Part shown: positions 29,409 through 38,973 of the stretch, piece by piece | Layout: each line of letters starts with the position of its first letter | Numbering within the stretch: position 1 is the first letter of the stretch | Notes under the pieces: model-generated | Told to the model about the DNA's origin: nothing | The model's database searches: none | What the model saw: only the letters and a program-made list of their open reading frames with translations | Made by a program: the position numbers and the translations under genes | Source of the DNA: Puniceicoccaceae bacterium K14 | GTDB lineage: Bacteria > Verrucomicrobiota > Verrucomicrobiia > Opitutales > Opitutaceae | Reading direction: 5' to 3' | Length of the DNA stretch: 64,000 nucleotides | NCBI GenBank assembly: GCA_022538095.1 | Contig: JAKYXN010000006.1 | Location: 1 to 64,000, forward strand

Positions 29409-32400
29409 TTAAGGGAGATCGTATATCTCAACTAAAGCAACACCTTCGCCATTTCCTTCGTCGCTGACGAGCACTGTGTAAGCTCCCGGGTCTAGCCAGA
29501 GCACCATCGCTGCATCCTTCGAGCCTTCACTCAAGTCGAATGCTCCCGCATTCTGCGCTGCTTCTTCAATAATCTCAAATGCTCGGTAACTCGCATCCGA
29601 CTCGTTACTCACACTCGTACCGCCCATCCAGTCATCGTTAGAAGCAATGACTTTAGATTCACGGATTAATGAAATTTTGGGGTCTGGCAAATAGCCCTCA
29701 ACATTTTGAGCCATCAAGCCCGGCCCGACTCCACGAATTAAGACTTTCTTCGGCTCGGTCCCGGATATTACAAATCCTCCAATTAGATATTCGTCACTCT
29801 TGCTCACAAAGCCACGCGTCGAAACGTTCACCAAAGCTTTTTCTTCTCCTCGATCTAAATCATAAATCTCAACCAACGCTTCACCCGTTTCACCAATTAC
29901 TTCGCTCGTTACTAGAGCCGTGTAGGCCCCGGGGGACAACGCCACCTCCAACGAAGAATCTGTACTACCAGCCTGCAGAGCAAACGCCCCAACGCTCGAG
30001 AACACAGATTCCAAGATACTAGAGGCTAGGTGCCAATCAGTGTTCGAATTAACGATTGCTGAGTTGCTTAAGATTTCGACTTTAGGATTAAGCAGAACGT
30101 TCTGAACCCCCTGGGCTTCCAGCGACGGTCCCACTGCACGCACCAAAATATTTCGATCCTCACCTTCCGGAATAACAAAACCGCCTATCAATAATTGCTC
30201 TCCCGTCTTTACATTTCCACGCGTCGATAGATTCGCAAACTCCGAAGAGGAACTATAGCCTGACTTCAACAAAAAGATCGGATAAGTAGTCCCTTCTGTA
30301 GTTATCGTGCCCGAAAACGAACTTCCATCATCAGAAAAACTTCCAACGTAATCAGAACCTCCATCTAATGCAGAACTCAACAAAGCGTTATCAAGCGTGC
30401 CCATTAGAATTTCATCGTGACGACCACGCCTAGCAAGCAAATAGCCGCCCAAGTCGTTTACAATAATGTCTAAATACGAATCCGAGACTCCGACAACCCC
30501 GCCGGAATAGCTTCCAGAATAAGAAGATACATCCACAGTTTCCTCCACCAAAGCCGCGGAGGCGATAATGCCGAGCTCATTTACACTGATCGACACGTCT
30601 CCACGAGCGATCCCAGATAAGGTTCCACCGACATTATCAGTCGCTGATATCACGCCAAAAGAATCTATCAATATTTCCTTTCGAAATCTCGAGTAGCCAC
30701 TTTCCTCATCAAATATCGAAATATATCCAGTTTCTAATGACTCGTCGACCTCAACCCAAAGCAACGTCTCGCTTCCATCTGCACTGACGAAAGTGCCTGC
30801 TTGTACGGGCTCAGTATTTAGCTCTAGCGGGTAGTAAAAACTCTCCGAAGCCGCATCATCGTACACACGAACCTGTAGCACGGCACGATCTAGCAACTGA
30901 GTATTAAGGACGATTGAGTCACTCCCATCTCCCAAAAAATTCGCTGATCCGATTGTATCCACTAGACTCCAATCATAATTCGCATTTGGGCTTTCGCCCA
31001 ACCCGTTAGCAAAGCGAAATACTAGGCTTTTTTCATCCTCCGACTCCAACTGTTCTATCCCATACCCGTTCCATCTGTCCTTGAAGTATTGTGACGCGAC
31101 AATAGCAAGTTCTTTGGAACTCAACACACGATCATAAAGACGAACTTCATCAATCAAACCATCCCATGGGCGTTCTCCATCGTCACGATCTCCAATGTAG
31201 GCAGTTCCCCCGCTCACGCTTTGACTGCCAGTAGGAAAAATTTGATTTCGAACCGTCTGGCTTTCCCCATTCAAATAGATCAACGGAAAATTGCCTAAAG
31301 AAGAACTGTCATACGTAGCGGCGACATGAACCCACTCGCCTACAATTGCCGATTTTGGTTCCGTGTTCCAAACCCCAAAGTCACCATCAATACGGTTTGA
31401 ATAAAACTTATAAACATCACGATTCCCGTCTGGGGTATCGATGCCTCCATCGCTTGAAACATACAAATAGTAATCAGGTGTGTTTACGATGCGTGGATGA
31501 GCATTGTGAGAAATCTGATCGGCGTTCACGAGTGCCGTCACAGTGATTTGCGACGAAGATTCCGATTCAAACTGCATAAAGCTATTTGAACCTGTCAAAC
31601 GCACACTATCCCCAAGCCCACCTTCTTCTACAATTGCATTCGTGAGGACCCCATTGTCGCCACCAGCAGAATCAGTGACTTCTGTGCCCACATCCTCAAA
31701 TGAGTAGTAATGCAGCAGTCCATCCAAAACATCTCCTGTTTCGCCAACAAGCACGGTTCTATCCAAGCTCCTCACTGTATCAGAAATAAAGGCGTTAAAT
31801 CGTACAGTATACACACCCTCGCCTTCGAAATAACACGTAACGTTCGATCCAGTAATTGAAGCGGTAGACTGCCCCCCTTCCAGTATTTCGACGCTCAAAC
31901 CAACGCCTTCAGGTACCAAAGTTTCAAACTCAACAGGATAGCTGGAATTCGGCACAATCACTAAAGCCCCCGGGTGGCTTGTTATCTCAATATCAAAATT
32001 CAAAAATTCGGAATCGACTGCTGCGAATGCATTCAGGCGACCTCCAGTTAGAACTCGACCTTGCAAATTATCTACTTCATCGACCGTATCCAAAATCCTA
32101 TTCTTAATATCCTCCCAGGAAAGTTCTGGATCATAGCTAGCGACCAATGCAACCGTTCCTGCCACCAAAGGCGAAGCCATCGATGTTCCAGAAAGATAAC
32201 CAATTGACCCACCTGTGAGAGTAGAATATATGCTTGTACCTGGAGCTGCTAAATCAACACTTTGCGTCCCATAATTAGAAGACGAAGAAAGCGAATCGCT
32301 TTGGGTTGAATTTGCCACTGAAATTATGGTATCAACAGCATAACTCGCTGGATATTGTGTAAAACCACCATCTAGGTTACTACCGTCATTTCCAGATGCA

Positions 32401-33572
32401 GCAACAAACAAAATCCCCGCATCTTCTTGGTCTTGAATAACACTTTGCATACCTCTACTAGAAGAAGAACCGCCATAGGAGTTATTCGTTGCGACAACAT
32501 TCACACCACGCTCCCTCATCGCTTTTGCATATCGCAACGCCTCCGCTATCGCCTGATTAGAAAGGCCGTCATTATCACCAGTTCTCAAAATCATAACCTT
32601 AGACCGCCATGCAATTCCAGTTGTACCCAATGAATTGTTACCTGTTGCAGAGACGATTCCGGCCACATGCGTTCCATGCCCATCAGTATCATTCGGGTCA
32701 TTGTCGTCATCCAAAAAGTCCCAACCATTTACGTCGTCTACAAAGCCGTTATTGTCATCGTCTATTCCATTACCAGCTATCTCGAGTTCGTTCACCCATA
32801 TATTATCTACAAGATCGATATGGTCCGTCTCTGCTCCCGTATCAATAATTGCAACTACCACATCCGGCGAGCCCGTTTCGACTCCCCATGCCTCCACCGC
32901 TGATACCTGGTCTAAATGCCACATCCTTGCCGAATTGAAATCGTTGGGGACTTCGCTAGTAAAATTGATATAATCTGGTTCAACAATTACACTCGCAAAA
33001 CGAGTCGCAGCCATTGTCGAAATATCCTCAAACCGGCTCAGAGATGAATTATAAATCTTAATTTGAACAAAATCTGATAATCTGGATTTCCAAGAAACAG
33101 CGAGGTTTTCACTCTTCAAAAATTCTTCAAACTCGACCGACGAAACGCGAGATTGATCATATTCAAAAGTCAACTCATCCCCTTTCATGTAGGCATCCTT
33201 AATCAAGATCCAATCACCTGCTCTAGCATCCAGTGAAAAGGTTTCCTCCTTACGGATAAGCGACCTTCGAGATTCAAATAAGGTGATCCGATTCACTTCT
33301 GTTTCACTTACGCGAACCGTTTTTGATTCGATTGTTGAAAGGTACGATTTCGGAAAGCTCAAAACAGGTAGATTCAGCAAAACGTCACTAACTGTATTAG
33401 GGCGAACTTCATCTGTAATCGGGATTACCGCAGCATCCTTGGCCGACTCATCAATAAACTCATGCTCTACACTAGTAAGACTTTGAATTTCGGTAGACGA
33501 ATTTCGATTGCCAACCATCGACAGAAAGACGGTTCCAAGGAGCACAACTCCGATAAGTAAAATTCGCTTCAT
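29409..33572 (-). CDS. secreted subtilisin-like (S8) serine protease with LamG-like domain and two C-terminal STRG/GGFVI domains
   Basis: A 1387-residue exported protease. I chose the ATG at 33572 (starting MKRILLIGVVLL, a signal peptide); an upstream ATG at 33605 adds 11 residues. The prodomain (about 25-205) is followed by the S8 catalytic domain: Asp near 244 in AIIDTGAETDH, His near 299 in DGHGTHVAG, oxyanion Asn in ASGNDG, and Ser near 464 in SGTSMASPLVAG. A concanavalin/LamG-like segment follows (about 630-800; YYSFEDVGTEV, LIDEVRLYDRVLS), then beta-rich repeats. The two C-terminal domains span about 1110-1244 and 1245-1387. It probably digests external protein at the cell surface or outside the cell. 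It is preceded by 124 bp without a gene and the clpC terminator. Confidence 0.93.
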   Translation of the reverse strand: MKRILLIGVVLLGTVFLSMVGNRNSSTEIQSLTSVEHEFIDESAKDAAVIPITDEVRPNTVSDVLLNLPVLSFPKSYLSTIESKTVRVSETEVNRITLFESRRSLIRKEETFSLDARAGDWILIKDAYMKGDELTFEYDQSRVSSVEFEEFLKSENLAVSWKSRLSDFVQIKIYNSSLSRFEDISTMAATRFASVIVEPDYINFTSEVPNDFNSARMWHLDQVSAVEAWGVETGSPDVVVAIIDTGAETDHIDLVDNIWVNELEIAGNGIDDDNNGFVDDVNGWDFLDDDNDPNDTDGHGTHVAGIVSATGNNSLGTTGIAWRSKVMILRTGDNDGLSNQAIAEALRYAKAMRERGVNVVATNNSYGGSSSSRGMQSVIQDQEDAGILFVAASGNDGSNLDGGFTQYPASYAVDTIISVANSTQSDSLSSSSNYGTQSVDLAAPGTSIYSTLTGGSIGYLSGTSMASPLVAGTVALVASYDPELSWEDIKNRILDTVDEVDNLQGRVLTGGRLNAFAAVDSEFLNFDIEITSHPGALVIVPNSSYPVEFETLVPEGVGLSVEILEGGQSTASITGSNVTCYFEGEGVYTVRFNAFISDTVRSLDRTVLVGETGDVLDGLLHYYSFEDVGTEVTDSAGGDNGVLTNAIVEEGGLGDSVRLTGSNSFMQFESESSSQITVTALVNADQISHNAHPRIVNTPDYYLYVSSDGGIDTPDGNRDVYKFYSNRIDGDFGVWNTEPKSAIVGEWVHVAATYDSSSLGNFPLIYLNGESQTVRNQIFPTGSQSVSGGTAYIGDRDDGERPWDGLIDEVRLYDRVLSSKELAIVASQYFKDRWNGYGIEQLESEDEKSLVFRFANGLGESPNANYDWSLVDTIGSANFLGDGSDSIVLNTQLLDRAVLQVRVYDDAASESFYYPLELNTEPVQAGTFVSADGSETLLWVEVDESLETGYISIFDEESGYSRFRKEILIDSFGVISATDNVGGTLSGIARGDVSISVNELGIIASAALVEETVDVSSYSGSYSGGVVGVSDSYLDIIVNDLGGYLLARRGRHDEILMGTLDNALLSSALDGGSDYVGSFSDDGSSFSGTITTEGTTYPIFLLKSGYSSSSEFANLSTRGNVKTGEQLLIGGFVIPEGEDRNILVRAVGPSLEAQGVQNVLLNPKVEILSNSAIVNSNTDWHLASSILESVFSSVGAFALQAGSTDSSLEVALSPGAYTALVTSEVIGETGEALVEIYDLDRGEEKALVNVSTRGFVSKSDEYLIGGFVISGTEPKKVLIRGVGPGLMAQNVEGYLPDPKISLIRESKVIASNDDWMGGTSVSNESDASYRAFEIIEEAAQNAGAFDLSEGSKDAAMVLWLDPGAYTVLVSDEGNGEGVALVEIYDLP
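29412..29840 (-). repeat. C-terminal STRG/GGFVI domain, copy 3 (protease repeat 2)
   Basis: The last about 143 residues of the protease. It begins NVSTRGFV, then YLIGGFVISG, KKVLIRGVGPGL, NDDW, GAYTVLV and ends VALVEIYD. It is in tandem with the copy at 29841-30245. Confidence 0.85.
29841..30245 (-). repeat. C-terminal STRG/GGFVI domain, copy 2 (protease repeat 1)
   Basis: About 135 residues beginning NLSTRGNV, then LLIGGFVIPEG, NILVRAVGPSL, a GAYTALV strand and ending EALVEIYDL. Same motif order as the copy that follows and as the exported protein at 5.8 kb. Confidence 0.85.
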
Positions 33573-33667
33573 CTTAAGCATATGGGTATGAATCCAGCTA
33601 AACAATATATCTATCGATTGTTAACTAACTGACTTAAACATATTACGAACAAAGGCCTGAAGAGGAT

Positions 33668-33729: not shown

Positions 33730-36231
33730 CTACTTTTCAGTTTCAGAAGAAACTTCTTCAGTCTTATCCAAAACCTCGAATTTCAATTCTTCGCCGTTTC
33801 GAGCTACCTTAACATCGTCGCCTTCATTAATCTCTCCACCAAGCAAGGCCTCAGCCATTGGATCTTCAAGGAATCGCTCGATAGACCTTCTGAGAGGACG
33901 AGCCCCGTATTTTTCATCGTAGCCATTATCGATAAGTAATTCCTTTGCTTCATCAGAAAGATCGATTGTGATTTTCTTATCAACAAGACGCTTCTGCAAT
34001 TTGCTGATTTCCAAGTCAACAATGCGAACCAACGACTTCTTTTCCAAACTATGGAATACTATCAAGTCATTTAAACGATTCAAAAACTCTGGCTTAAAGA
34101 CTTTCTTCGCTTCGTCCAAAACTTTCTCTTTGATCGCATCATAGTTATCCGTCAAATCACCGGTAGTCCCAAATCCCATACTTGTCTGGCGTTGGATAAC
34201 TTCAGCGCCAACGTTGGTCGTCATTATGATGATTGTATTACGGAAATCAACTACACGCCCCAAGCTATCAGTTAGGTGGCCTTCTTCAAATATTTGAAGC
34301 ATGATCTGCACTACATCAGGGTGAGCCTTTTCGATTTCATCGAATAAAACAACTGAGTATGGCTTGCGGCGAACTTTCTCGGAAAGTTGCCCACCTTCTT
34401 CGTGACCTACATAGCCTGGAGGAGAACCAATCATACGTGACACAGAGAACTTCTCCATGTACTCAGACATATCGACTTGAATAATTGAATCGCGGTCCCC
34501 GAACATTTTCTCGGCCAATGTACGAGCTAAGAAAGTTTTACCTACACCAGTGGGGCCTAAGAACATGAATGAACCAATAGGACGATTTGGATCCTTCAAA
34601 TCAGCACGGCTCCGTCGCAGCGCCTTTGAAATCGAAGTACAGGCCTCGTCTTGTCCAATAATAATTTCTTGGAGCTCTGCTTCCATACGAAGTAAACGCT
34701 CTGTCTCCTTCTTTTCCATACGCTGAAGAGGAATGCCCGTCATATCAGAGACGACCCTCAACATATCTTCCTCGGAAACTGTAATCCGCTGTTCTTCGCG
34801 GCTACTCTTCCAATCTTCTAAAATCTTCTCCTGTTTAGCCCGCAACTGCTTCTCTTGGTCACGGTACTTTGCCGCTTCTTCGAAATGCTGCTTACTGATA
34901 GCTTCTTCCTTTTTAGAACAAACCGATTCGATTTCTTCCGAAAGTGTTTCGATTTCTGGCGGACGATTCAAAGAGGCAATGCGTGCACGCGATCCTGCTT
35001 CGTCCAAGATATCAATCGCCTTATCAGGTAAATACCGCGAAGTGATATAACGTTCGGAAAGTTTAACAGCGGCCTCAAGTGCCACATCTGTGAATACAGC
35101 TTTGTGGTGATCTTCGTACTTCGAACGAATACCCTTCAAAATTAAAATCGCATCCTCGATGCTAGGTGCCTCCACTTTAACACTTTGGAAACGACGATCA
35201 AGAGCAGCATCCTTTTCAATGTACTTGCGATACTCATTAATAGTGGTTGCTCCAATACATTGCAACTCACCGCGTGAAAGCGCTGGCTTGAATATATTCG
35301 ATGCGTCCATCGCACCTTCGGCTGCTCCAGCGCCTACGATAGTATGAAGCTCATCAATGAAAATTATAACGTTACCCGCACGCTTAATCTCATCCATAAC
35401 CGCTTTGATTCGCTCTTCAAATTGCCCACGGTATTTCGTTCCTGCTACCATTAACGCCAAATCGAGCGTTACGACACGCTTGTCAGCCAAAATCTCAGGA
35501 ACCACGCCACTCGCAATCTCCAACGCCAAACCTTCGACGATAGCGGTCTTACCGACACCTGCTTCACCAATGAGTACTGGGTTATTCTTGCTACGACGAC
35601 AAAGAATTTGAATTACTCGGCTGATTTCCATTTTTCGGCCGACTACGGGATCAAGCTCCCCCTTCTTGGCCAATTCTGTCAAATCGCGACCAAATGCTTT
35701 CAACGCAGGTGTCTTAGCTTCTTTCTTTTCATCACCTGCTGAAGGCGAACTACCATGTGAAACGGCTTCTTCCGATTCGCCTGAAAATTGAGGATCGAGC
35801 TCACGAAGGATTTCATTACGCGTGCGTTCGATATCCACGTCTAGAGACTTAAGCACTCTAGCGGCAACACCTTCTCCTTCTCGAAGAAGGCCAAGTAAAA
35901 TATGTTCAGTGCCTACATAGCTGTGGTTGAGCGCCTTCGCTTCTTTCCCCGCAAGGGCTAAAACTTTCTTCACGCGCGGCGTATACGGGATGCTGCCAGA
36001 TGACTTCCCTTCCGGACCTGAGCCCACCTGCTTTTCAACAGCATTTCGTACGGTTTCGAGGTCGAGCCCCATTTTCTGAAGTACGCTAACAGCCACACCT
36101 TGGCCAAGCTTTATCAAGCCGAGCAAAATATGCTCGGTACCTACATAGTTGTGGCGGAATCTATCTGCCTCCTTGCGAGCCAAAGCAAGTACTTGCTGGG
36201 CACGTGGAGTGAAGTTGTTCATTGGTTCCAT
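33730..36231 (-). CDS. clpC: ATP-dependent Clp protease ATPase subunit ClpC
   Basis: An 833-residue AAA+ unfoldase that feeds substrates to ClpP. Two N-terminal Clp repeat domains (RQQV-type [17 protein letters not shown] and [15 protein letters not shown]) are followed by AAA1 with Walker [10 protein letters not shown] (about 215-223), a middle domain with a UVR-like helix (about 425-455; [17 protein letters not shown]) that binds McsB or MecA-type adaptors, and AAA2 with Walker [10 protein letters not shown] (about 560-568). The UVR-containing M domain marks it as ClpC and not ClpA or ClpB. In Firmicutes McsB adds phosphate to Arg residues, and ClpCP degrades those proteins. The gene is the last of the mcsA-mcsB-clpC operon; the mcsB stop lies 7 bp upstream. 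Confidence 0.96.
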
Positions 36232-36237
36232 AAATTC

Positions 36238-37368
36238 TTACTTTGTATCCTCCTGTTCAGCGTCTTTTCCCTCATCCGACCCATCGCTTTTTTTTAAGCT
36301 GTAAATGGGCTTCTCTACATTCTCAAACAGCTCTCGCATATATTGTGCCCGAAATGCATCTCGCTTCGAAGATTCGATAGTTTCCGTTGCGTGATACTGA
36401 ATATGGCCTGGCTGACATTCGATAAAAATTCCATCTACGACATTGCGGGTCTTTTCGGGGAACATTTCCAAATCGACACCAAAACGCACAAGTGAAGCCA
36501 AATTCATACATTCGCTTGAGGTAAGCAAATGACTGTTTTGCAGTATGCCATATGCCCGACCGATCTTATCGTAGAGCTTGTTGCAGTCCTTCTCTAAAAT
36601 CTTTTCCCGGGCGTTCATTTCCTGATCAATGATCGTTTTAAGAACGGCCGAAAGGCGTTTTATAATTTCTTCCTCAGACTCGCCCAAGGTTGTTTGATTC
36701 GATATCTGGAAGATACTCCCACTCGCATCAGAGCCTTCACCAAACAACCCTCGCACAGCAATCCCCAATTGGTTAACTGCTCGTACGACTTTCTCCATCT
36801 GGCTCGAAATAACCAAAGCAGGCAAATGCATCATAGCCGATGCTCGCATGCCGGTCCCTACATTAGTCGGGCAAGCCGTCAAAAAGCCGAGTTTGTTCGA
36901 AAAGGCGAATGGCAACGTGTTTTCCAACTCAGAATCGAGCCCATTGATAGCATTCCAAGCCTGCTTGAAACGGTAACCGGACTTAATCACCTGAATTCGC
37001 ATGTGATCCTCTTCGTTGATCATCACCGAAACTGACTGATCCTTGCTGATCACTACTCCCGCTTGATCCGGAGTTGACGACAATTCACGGCTAATCAAAT
37101 GGCGCTCTACTAAAATTTGTTTTTCCAGTTCACTGAGATCGCCCAACTCCGCTGTTATGCCTCGTTTCATTTGAGCCAGGGACGCAACTGCGGGTAGACA
37201 TGTCCCAAGAACTTCCTCTCGGTGTGCCGCTTTGGCCCAACCAGGAAATGGAATGTCGGCCAAATTGCGAGCCAAACGAATGCGCGTCATCAAAACAACA
37301 GGACACTTCTTCGTCGAACTGCCTGTTACCTCTGATTTCCCTCCAAATATGCTTTTGATTAGCATCAA
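36238..37368 (-). CDS. mcsB: protein-arginine kinase McsB
   Basis: A 376-residue ATP:guanido phosphotransferase-family protein that phosphorylates arginine side chains. Conserved features are all seen: NEEDHMRIQ (residues about 118-126, substrate acidic pair), TACPTNVGTG with the catalytic-position Cys at about 166, and RDAFRA at about 336-341, which matches the RDXXRA phospho-arginine-binding motif known from Bacillus McsB. Phospho-arginine marks proteins for ClpCP degradation in Firmicutes. The gene lies between mcsA (4 bp gap) and clpC (6 bp gap). It is encoded here in what otherwise looks like a Gram-negative bacterium, without a ctsR gene. Confidence 0.96.
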   Translation of the reverse strand: MMLIKSIFGGKSEVTGSSTKKCPVVLMTRIRLARNLADIPFPGWAKAAHREEVLGTCLPAVASLAQMKRGITAELGDLSELEKQILVERHLISRELSSTPDQAGVVISKDQSVSVMINEEDHMRIQVIKSGYRFKQAWNAINGLDSELENTLPFAFSNKLGFLTACPTNVGTGMRASAMMHLPALVISSQMEKVVRAVNQLGIAVRGLFGEGSDASGSIFQISNQTTLGESEEEIIKRLSAVLKTIIDQEMNAREKILEKDCNKLYDKIGRAYGILQNSHLLTSSECMNLASLVRFGVDLEMFPEKTRNVVDGIFIECQPGHIQYHATETIESSKRDAFRAQYMRELFENVEKPIYSLKKSDGSDEGKDAEQEDTK

Positions 37369-37372
37369 ATAA

Positions 37373-37885
37373 TTATTCTATTTCTTGAGCCGCTAGACTC
37401 TTTTTGAGCTCAATAATTTCGTCGCGGAATTTAGCCGCATCTTCATACTGCTCCTCTTCGATCGCCGTCTTAAGATCAAGCTCGAGCTCGTTGAGCCTGT
37501 CTTCGTAACTACGACGCTCCATCGCTTTAAGGGGCACTTTTCCACGATGGTTTTCTCCTTTGTGCATAGTCTCTAAAGCGGGACGAATCAGTCCGGAAAA
37601 GGCTTCGTAGCAAGATGGGCAACCAACGCGGCCAGTCTTTTTGAATTCACGCTGCGTGTAGCCACACTTCGAGCAAACTAAAGAACCCGCAGGTTCGCTC
37701 ACTTCTTCGTTTGCCGGCGGCTTAACAAGTAAATCCGCCAAAGAATAACCATTCGGATCCGTAATTCCTTTTGCTTCAGCGCATGATTCGCACAAATCAA
37801 TTTTGTGAATCTGGTTATTTACAATCTGAGTCAAATGCACCGTGGCCTGGCTGTCACAGAGATCGCATTTTAAAGGCTTTGCCAT
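37373..37885 (-). CDS. mcsA: McsA-like zinc-binding activator of the McsB arginine kinase
   Basis: A 170-residue protein with two N-terminal zinc fingers (CDLC ... CESC near residues 7-37 and CSKCG ... CPSC near 71-92), then a flexible spacer and a C-terminal UVR motif (about 130-165; EDRLNELELDLKTAIEEEQYEDAAKFRDE), the McsA architecture. In Bacillus, McsA activates McsB and is needed for arginine phosphorylation. Here it heads the mcsA-mcsB-clpC operon with 4-6 bp gaps; no CtsR repressor gene precedes it, and the upstream 220 bp (37886-38106) contain no obvious heptad CtsR box. Regulation must therefore differ from the Firmicutes pattern. Confidence 0.93.
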   Translation of the reverse strand: MAKPLKCDLCDSQATVHLTQIVNNQIHKIDLCESCAEAKGITDPNGYSLADLLVKPPANEEVSEPAGSLVCSKCGYTQREFKKTGRVGCPSCYEAFSGLIRPALETMHKGENHRGKVPLKAMERRSYEDRLNELELDLKTAIEEEQYEDAAKFRDEIIELKKSLAAQEIE

Positions 37886-38011
37886 AATTAGTTGGTTTAT
37901 ATTCGGTTCGAAACAATAGAATTACAGGATTCAGAACAAGACAATCACATTGCATGACTTGTGCCATTTTCCAAGATTTCGATGGTTACTTTGCTACAAG
38001 AACAAACGCAC

Positions 38012-38045
38012 AAAGGGAATCACTCATTGAGCGATTCCCCTTTTT
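38012..38045. terminator. hairpin with T run in the mcsA/ilvE intergenic region
   Basis: GGGAATC (38015-38021) pairs with GATTCCC (38033-38039), with CTC/GAG below a three-base loop and an A.C mismatch. Plus-strand TTTTT follows. The minus-strand ilvE is the only transcript expected to reach it; its T run on that strand is weak (CCCTTTG), so the function is uncertain. Confidence 0.5.
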
Positions 38046-38106
38046 AAATTTATTTTGACGAACAACGAACAGGTTGGCCAACCAATTGCCTAGTTTAGTG
38101 GGCAAT

Positions 38107-38973
38107 TTATATCATGGTTCCATGAGTGGTAACCTCATCATGGAACGCCGCATGCAGCTTTTTCGTGATTGGACCCGGACCATCTAAACCAATTTTCCGC
38201 CCGTCTAATTTCACAACCGGAATTAGTTCTGCAGCCGTACCAGTTAGGAAGCATTCATCTGCGTTCCAAATATCGTAGCGTGTGAGGTTTTTCTCTTCCA
38301 ACTTGATATCCAAAGAAGCTGCCAAATCCATCACTGCTTGACGCGTTATTCCACGAAGCGCTCCGTTCGCAACCCCCGGTGTATAAATGGCACCTTTGTG
38401 AACCACAAAGAGGTTATCTCCCGTACACTCCGCAACATAGCCATGATCGTTCAGCATGATAGCCTCTAAAGCTCCCCATTGGGCAGCTTCCATCTTTGCC
38501 ATCACGTTGTTCAAATAGTTGAGAGATTTAATACTTGGATCAAGAGCCGCTGGAGCAACACGTCGAGTCGGCACGGTCACGATTGCCAACCCCTTGGTAT
38601 AGTGCTCTTCCGGATAAAGGCGTATAGCATCTGCTATAATAATCACAGTTGGCTTCACACAAGACTCGGGCGATAATCCCAAGTTACCTTGTCCTCGAGT
38701 GACGATCAGCCTTATGTAGCCATCGGTAAGGTTATTTTGGCGACAGGATTCACAAACCGCTTCCGACATTTCTTCCATCGTCATTGGCATTTCAAGCAAG
38801 ATGGCTTTTGCCGAGTACCACAGTCGCTCCAAATGCTCTTCCAAACGGTAAATGCAGTTTTTATAGATACGAATTCCTTCAAAAATTCCATCTCCATACA
38901 GGAGACCATGGTCGAAGACCGAGATCTTCGCTTCATCCTTATCTACAAAATTGCCGTCCAAATAGATTTTCAT
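38107..38973 (-). CDS. ilvE: branched-chain amino acid aminotransferase (PLP fold type IV)
   Basis: A 288-residue transaminase of the IlvE/D-alanine aminotransferase fold, converting keto acids to Val, Leu and Ile with glutamate. The start at 38973 (MKIYLDGNFVDKDEAKISVFDHGLLYGDGIFEGI) is the family-typical N-terminus; ATGs at 38982 and an upstream frame to 39009 are less likely. PLP Lys lies in SIKSLNYLNN (about 147-156). GDNLFVV, TPGVANGALRGITRQAVMD and DECFLTGTAAELIPV are signature blocks. The gene is monocistronic. The usual caveat is that IlvE and D-amino-acid aminotransferase cannot be fully separated by eye, but GTAAELIPV favours IlvE. Confidence 0.93.
   Translation of the reverse strand: MKIYLDGNFVDKDEAKISVFDHGLLYGDGIFEGIRIYKNCIYRLEEHLERLWYSAKAILLEMPMTMEEMSEAVCESCRQNNLTDGYIRLIVTRGQGNLGLSPESCVKPTVIIIADAIRLYPEEHYTKGLAIVTVPTRRVAPAALDPSIKSLNYLNNVMAKMEAAQWGALEAIMLNDHGYVAECTGDNLFVVHKGAIYTPGVANGALRGITRQAVMDLAASLDIKLEEKNLTRYDIWNADECFLTGTAAELIPVVKLDGRKIGLDGPGPITKKLHAAFHDEVTTHGTMI

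Follow-up and report, generated by a model that had tools for sequence, protein, structure and literature searches.

CtsR is the textbook switch of the mcsA-mcsB-clpC operon and is itself a known substrate of McsB. Degradation by ClpCP that depends on phospho-arginine (pArg) is already known from Chlamydia, where ClpCP2P1 degrades arginine-phosphorylated and not plain casein (PMC10128030), and an mcsB beside a clpA-like gene is already known from a verrucomicrobium, Methylacidiphilum, in which mcsB (Minf_0242) and the clpA-like Minf_0241 were up 3.21- and 2.26-fold, respectively, during growth on formic acid (PMC8024496); the papers cited here by PMC number are represented by parts of their text. 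The stretch of DNA under study, referred to below as the window, comprises 64,000 nucleotides of contig JAKYXN010000006.1 (assembly GCA_022538095.1) of Puniceicoccaceae bacterium K14, to which all coordinates refer, and carries mcsA, mcsB and clpC but no ctsR. The locus appears to be a working pArg proteolysis operon that in this clade is transcribed from a -24/-12 promoter instead of being under CtsR repression, a reading to which a probability of roughly two-thirds can be given. The gene set itself is ordinary for the phylum, and what is new is a specific, sigma-54-type candidate for the missing control.

The three genes form a tight operon on the minus strand, running from 37885 to 33730, with intergenic gaps of 4 and 6 bases:

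mcsA, 37373..37885, minus strand: activator of protein-arginine kinase, 170 amino acids, with two CxxC-CxxC zinc fingers and a UVR motif

mcsB, 36238..37368, minus strand: protein-arginine kinase with all eight of the active-site residues checked present; TTG start

clpC, 33730..36231, minus strand: AAA+ unfoldase with E33 and E109, a UVR-containing M domain and an MGF loop at 685

An earlier note on this DNA had claimed a complete operon, which is borne out by coordinates, protein families and matches to solved structures, and had named Cys166, NEEDH and RDXXRA (336-341) in McsB, the zinc fingers and UVR motif of McsA, and the UVR motif of ClpC, all of them correct, residue numbers included. 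In McsA, CxxC pairs lie at 7, 32, 71, and 89 and the UVR motif spans 129-162; the protein is matched by the chain 8wtb_B of a solved McsA structure (7.5e-23). McsB aligns with solved McsBs (6fh1, 8wtb, and 6tv6) from residue 22 to 347 or 348, with E values down to 6.4e-79, contains the PF00217 phosphagen-kinase catalytic domain (9e-68), and scores 403.7 bits against the NCBIfam equivalog NF002194, above the cut-off of 385. In numbering from the TTG start (an ATG three bases on, at 37365, is equally good), NEEDH occupies residues 118-122, the Cys of the active site is residue 166, and RDAFRA, by alignment to solved McsB, occupies 336-341; the eight active-site positions checked are R29, R31, E120, R124, C166, R175, R206, and E211, and RDxxRA is presumably the C-terminal pArg-binding site, as the earlier note also had it. 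ClpC has two Clp_N repeats, two AAA modules, a UVR motif at 432-465, and an MGF ClpP loop at 685; its N-domain aligns to the solved Bacillus and mycobacterial ClpC N-domains and carries E33 and E109 at positions that we take to be those of the pArg pocket glutamates of Bacillus ClpC. The closest named McsBs over nearly full length are from Opitutales, including Pelagicoccus (79-83% identity; L066-L078).

In the proposed pathway, McsA would activate McsB, McsB would phosphorylate arginines of damaged or regulatory proteins, and the N-terminal domain of ClpC would bind pArg and feed the protein to a ClpP encoded elsewhere. The genome has four ClpP-family genes, two of them strong, and one strong clpP, which passes TIGR00493, lies between genes that on inspection look like tig and clpX. 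It also has three LMW-PTP genes, one of which (G000:C243; L146, 3128-3631, minus strand) lies 4 kb from clpP and has the P-loop CTANTCRS. The Thr in this loop is, we believe, a mark of YwlE-type pArg phosphatases, and the product is a possible candidate for that function.

That ctsR is missing, as the earlier note had it, agrees with a search of the whole genome using two CtsR models, neither of which found a match. PF05848 gave one marginal match among 288 genomes of the phylum (G049, 23.2 versus 23.1 bits), which was set aside because the full-length model did not recover it; PF05848 alone is a weak test, since among the positive controls it picked up Lactococcus but missed the Bacillus control genome. 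A second model, built from seven Bacillota CtsR proteins, found none in the 288 genomes, own genome included, and none in Pelagicoccus mobilis or a planctomycete control genome, and gave 8.6e-67 and 3.9e-68 in two Bacillota control genomes, one (L141) being itself in the model and the other having a near copy there. The absence of CtsR boxes upstream was also confirmed: with what we take to be the box consensus, no site with two or fewer mismatches occurs between 33001 and 39000, and the sole three-mismatch site is inside mcsA. No HrcA was found in the genome by a model whose control was positive in 7 genomes; CIRCE was not searched for. Because a complete pArg writer-reader set stands here without CtsR, its control must differ from that in Bacillus, and this part of the earlier proposal, different control of the pArg gene set, is supported, with an alternative promoter now proposed.

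The candidate for this control lies upstream of mcsA:

Sigma-54-type (-24/-12) promoter element ATGGCACAAGTCATGCA, 37951..37967, minus strand: GG-N10-GC, with a predicted transcription start near 37940

In an alignment of the 300 bases before mcsA from the window and 14 near relatives, a single block is common to all 15, and its GG and GC are separated by ten bases, the arrangement of sigma-54 promoters. Elements were scored against TGGCACG-N4-TTGCW, which we take to be the sigma-54 consensus, on a scale of 13 letters with GG and GC obligatory and a threshold of 10; the window element matches 10 of the 13 letters, and its core is 81 bases from the mcsA start codon. Scores of at least 10 were obtained for 24 of 35 Opitutales genomes versus 2 of 39 genomes from other families (Fisher p 4.9e-9), the former divided into 18/23 in the same family and 6/12 in the rest of the order, as compared with 183 of 3500 dinucleotide shuffles and, on the reverse strand, 2 of 35. 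This sample was split by kinship labels, and its Opitutales part covers the genomes with a listed locus position, 23 of the family's 24 others and 12 of 18 in the rest of the order; from 55 other-family regions, 13 were dropped (10 with no recognised mcsA, 3 with no start codon), and removal of 3 duplicate genomes from the remaining 42 left 39. In a sample of named genomes (80 loci, of which 2 were passed over and 3 lacked an mcsA), 36 of 43 Opitutales regions versus 0 of 33 others reached the threshold (reverse strand, 1/43), but it should be noted that the Opitutales side was drawn after scoring, that L126, probably from Opitutales, scored 8 and was counted outside (36/44 if inside), and that the two samples overlap in taxa. 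The spacing is specific: TGGC-N(n)-TGC with n = 8 occurs in 20/35 and 37/43 regions of the two samples, and no other n between 2 and 19 exceeds 7 and 8 regions, respectively. Upstream regions of other open reading frames in the same loci (every ATG frame of at least 180 amino acids on either strand, some of which are not genes) reach a score of 10 in only 11 of 387 cases, and TGGC[AG]-N7-TGC is found in 5/387 of them versus 37/43 for mcsA. Both other-family genomes that reached the threshold belong to genus g40 (family f7); outside Opitutales, these two loci (L202 and L204) carry a near-perfect -24/-12 element, CTGGCACTCCGGTTGCT, about 92 bases before mcsA, and a third g40 genome scored 7.

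A -24/-12 promoter would need RpoN and an AAA+ enhancer-binding activator, which together would start transcription in place of CtsR repression. An unlikely, though by no means negligible, alternative is that the operon works but that the conserved block serves as an operator or belongs to a promoter of the sigma-70 type. The pattern TTGCCA-N15-17-xATxxT spans the block in all 19 of the core-bearing regions in which the core is 33-38 bases from the start codon (the near group: L083, L085-L095, L097, L106, L153, L154, L161, L167, and L175), and some copies look palindromic (GCACG-TCT-CGTGC in L076). In the other 38 of the 57 core-bearing regions, the far group, which includes the window, core and start codon are 81-131 bases apart, and only 4 regions have the pattern. 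Moreover, the invariant TGGC, TGC, and spacing of 8 are the letters of a -24/-12 element and are kept in groups that have no -10-like letters, among them the window and Pelagicoccus, six copies (L096, L163, L166, L178, L202, and L204) match the assumed consensus in 12 of 13 letters, and RpoN is encoded in 282 of the 288 genomes, the present one included. A sigma-70 promoter scan of 37800-38200 found none on the operon strand and one on the other strand. In the near group it looks as though one promoter type gives way to the other; the sigma-54 element may there have been overlaid, or replaced, by a sigma-70 promoter, and a sigma-70-like start would leave a leader of more ordinary length than would a start from sigma-54. 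Because the near-group cores all overlap the sigma-70-like pattern, the sigma-54 reading, taken from sequence comparison, is good for the group of the window and open for the near group.

Chlamydia, which we take to belong to the same superphylum as Verrucomicrobiota, provides a parallel for a link between sigma-54 and mcsA. In C. trachomatis, knockdown of sigma-54 lowered mcsA 2.27-fold, and double knockdown of sigma-54 and sigma-28 lowered mcsA 2.71-fold and mcsB 3.93-fold (PMC10597470), an effect that may be indirect, as part of the whole late-gene programme. Overexpression of ClpC raised mcsA and mcsB together with atoC (PMC11708050), and in GrgA deficiency the mcsA transcript was down 2.09-fold and clpC was up (PMC10790707). 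Sigma-54 control of mcsAB in Verrucomicrobia was not found in the literature searched, and a search on McsB found no report of pArg activity in a verrucomicrobium.

Several observations weigh against a working operon under sigma-54. The TGGC-N8-TGC core is missing from 21 of 78 Opitutales upstream regions when both samples are pooled, and the overlap with a sigma-70-like pattern extends to every member of the near group. In the genome itself the pattern is not enriched, with 11 matches versus 17 for the reversed pattern, and a sigma-54 regulon defined by pattern is not claimed; three intergenic matches lie ahead of an open reading frame, those of mcsA and of two secreted-looking proteins of 293 and 72 amino acids (L214 and L219). 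No enhancer-binding activator for mcsA, or site for one, was identified. In C. trachomatis, mcsA and mcsB bear no mark for induction by constitutively active AtoC in the available part of one report (PMC10597470), and heat shock lowered rpoN, with atoC and 10 of 13 known sigma-54 targets up; mcsB and clpC are not named in the main text of that study, as far as it was available (PMC8762339). Some family scores of the proteins also fall short: McsA reaches 121.8 bits against NCBIfam NF053706 (cut-off 210) and McsB 367.9 bits against NF053707 (cut-off 500), and McsB clears only one of five matching NCBIfam arginine-kinase equivalogs, three further models besides NF053707 being below their cut-offs. 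Finally, of the 19 CTAN-type LMW-PTPs in the family only 3 have the Thr, most relatives having Ile (no motif was obtained from 4 of 22 loci, and another 8 loci, of a different type, all have Ile); the assignment of the LMW-PTP near clpP as a pArg phosphatase is for this reason only a lead.

Two further features lie upstream of the promoter element:

Inverted repeat GGGAATCGC-TCAATGA-GTGATTCCC, 38015..38039, minus strand: on inspection, probably the terminator of the aminotransferase gene that lies upstream; the terminator scan did not call it

Repeat CGTCAAAATAAATTTAAAA (GTCAAAA...TTAAAA/TCAAAA), 38042..38060, minus strand: conserved in part among some near relatives, roughly 75-95 bases before the -24/-12 element

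The second of these is possibly a site for the activator or part of the upstream terminator. Just downstream of clpC, at 29409-33605 on the minus strand of the window, is a gene for a large subtilase with a laminin-G-like domain (PF00082 and PF13385).

The earlier note regarded the occurrence of this gene set outside Firmicutes as remarkable, and this is not supported: a match to McsB (E ≤0.001) is present in 281 of the 288 Verrucomicrobiota genomes sampled and is normal in the phylum, with 149 above the model cut-off. The mcsAB-clpC order, whose conservation the note proposed to check, was found in loci of both Verrucomicrobiota and Planctomycetota, and also in those of Omnitrophota, Auribacterota, Elusimicrobiota, and Bacillota. 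Among 80 McsB loci of named genomes, mcsA precedes mcsB in 77 and clpC follows it in 76; three loci (L104, L108, and L124) start within mcsB, two (L095 and L103) end in or just after it, and clpC was not seen in L114 and L123. By the Bacillota-built model, ctsR is present in 9 of the 80, all of them Bacillota records. In a tree of 43 McsB rows, the five from Bacillota group together (99/99), apart from those of Verrucomicrobiota; the deep forks have weak support, and L145, L144, L138, and L139 have long branches. As the five sampled Bacillota McsBs form one separate clade, there is no sign of recent transfer, and horizontal transfer from Bacillota is unsupported. With McsB near-universal, CtsR not found, and the Bacillota clade separate, the operon without ctsR is a standing feature of the phylum, and of the loci seen from other phyla. 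These same facts, the near-universal McsB match, the gene order common to many phyla, and the restriction of ctsR to Bacillota records, could be taken to mean that this is an ordinary conserved proteostasis operon in which the lack of CtsR is ancestral and the promoter nothing special. This explanation leaves the clade-specific promoter element unaccounted for and is somewhat less probable than that of an operator or sigma-70-type promoter, with which it overlaps, so that the odds of the two are not exclusive.

Catalytic residues are conserved in nearly all well-scoring McsBs. All eight active-site residues are present in 62 of 63 well-scoring McsBs aligned, the remaining one (Pectinatus, L144) being gapped at one position, and in 9 of 10 further well-scoring McsBs; E33 and E109 are kept in all 48 ClpC N-domains from the 63 loci. 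Elsewhere in the phylum McsB has diverged. Of 59 genomes with weak McsB matches that were re-examined (16 + 43), 13 gave no locus and 46 loci were aligned, and dropping 5 with fragments of <250 amino acids left 41:

Eroded McsB loci, L224-L236, L241-L257, L259-L264, and L266-L270: 41 loci, many still beside mcsA and clpC

None of the 59 genomes has a match over the cut-off, and the second matches in G191 and G212 adjoin the first, so that no intact second copy of McsB is seen. In none of the 41 proteins are E120, C166, and E211 found together, one keeps both glutamates, and from 0 to 4 of the eight active-site residues are left; the genera concerned are g29, g54, g57, g76, g78, g79, g81, g97, g115, g117, g118, g121, g126, g136, g143, g144, and g151. 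In the first 16 divergent loci, mcsA adjoins in 13 and clpC is within a short flank in 9, and of the ClpC N-domains found in 24 of the 46 loci, all 24 keep the first glutamate and 20 the second. The low ratios of nonsynonymous to synonymous substitution rates (dN/dS) within genera, 0.07-0.16 in g76, 0.08 in g126, 0.12 in g78 and g117, 0.16 in g81, and 0.07-0.60 in g57, speak for purifying selection on the divergent McsBs of several genera; for well-scoring McsBs the ratio is 0.03-0.10 where measurable. In g29 one pair gives 0.12, the others give 0.40-1.15 or no value, and synonymous sites are near saturation, and no constraint is therefore claimed for this genus. Genus g29 and family f21 each hold both intact McsBs (all eight residues in 6/6 and 3/4 well-scoring proteins, respectively) and eroded ones, which suggests that the kinase site was lost at least twice. 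The exception among the 10 further well-scoring proteins, the McsB of L280 (G224, family f21), is over the equivalog cut-off, yet its C166, R175, and E211 are replaced by Ser, Cys, and Lys.

The eroded McsBs of so many other lineages, in one case with a score over the cut-off, raise the question of whether the McsB of the window might also lack kinase activity and act solely as an adaptor of ClpC. As it keeps all eight active-site residues and RDAFRA, this is very improbable, and the protein is predicted to be an active arginine kinase. A literature search combining McsB and pseudokinase led, in the parts of the texts available, to cases in which the pseudokinase meant is another protein. A wider picture can be offered more tentatively, at somewhat less than even odds: in Opitutales the pArg pathway would be under sigma-54, switched on by an activator as opposed to being released from a repressor; the link between sigma-54 and mcsA would perhaps be an old trait shared with Chlamydia; and elsewhere in the phylum McsB would repeatedly have become a pseudokinase kept for a noncatalytic role with ClpC.

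That a phylum keeps McsA, McsB, and ClpC while lacking CtsR shows the targets and the control of the pathway to extend beyond this repressor. With a sigma-54 promoter the control becomes testable, and Pelagicoccus and Opitutus, as free-living relatives, can be set beside Chlamydia and its link of sigma-54 to mcsAB. The lineages with eroded McsBs are a natural test of which functions of McsB need catalysis. Among the systems described, Methylacidiphilum is like the present bacterium in being a member of Verrucomicrobia with mcsB beside a clpA-like gene, judged by locus numbers; no promoter is described in the available part of that report (PMC8024496), whereas a -24/-12 element is present here. 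In Chlamydia, mcsAB is an operon apart from clpC (PMC10128030), in contrast to the contiguous mcsA-mcsB-clpC of the window. With ctsR-mcsA-mcsB-clpC of Bacillus the locus shares the order of the genes, the zinc fingers and UVR motif of McsA, the active site and RDxxRA of McsB, and the N-domain glutamates and UVR motif of ClpC, but it differs from the Bacillus operon in having no ctsR gene and no CtsR box, and a -24/-12 element instead.

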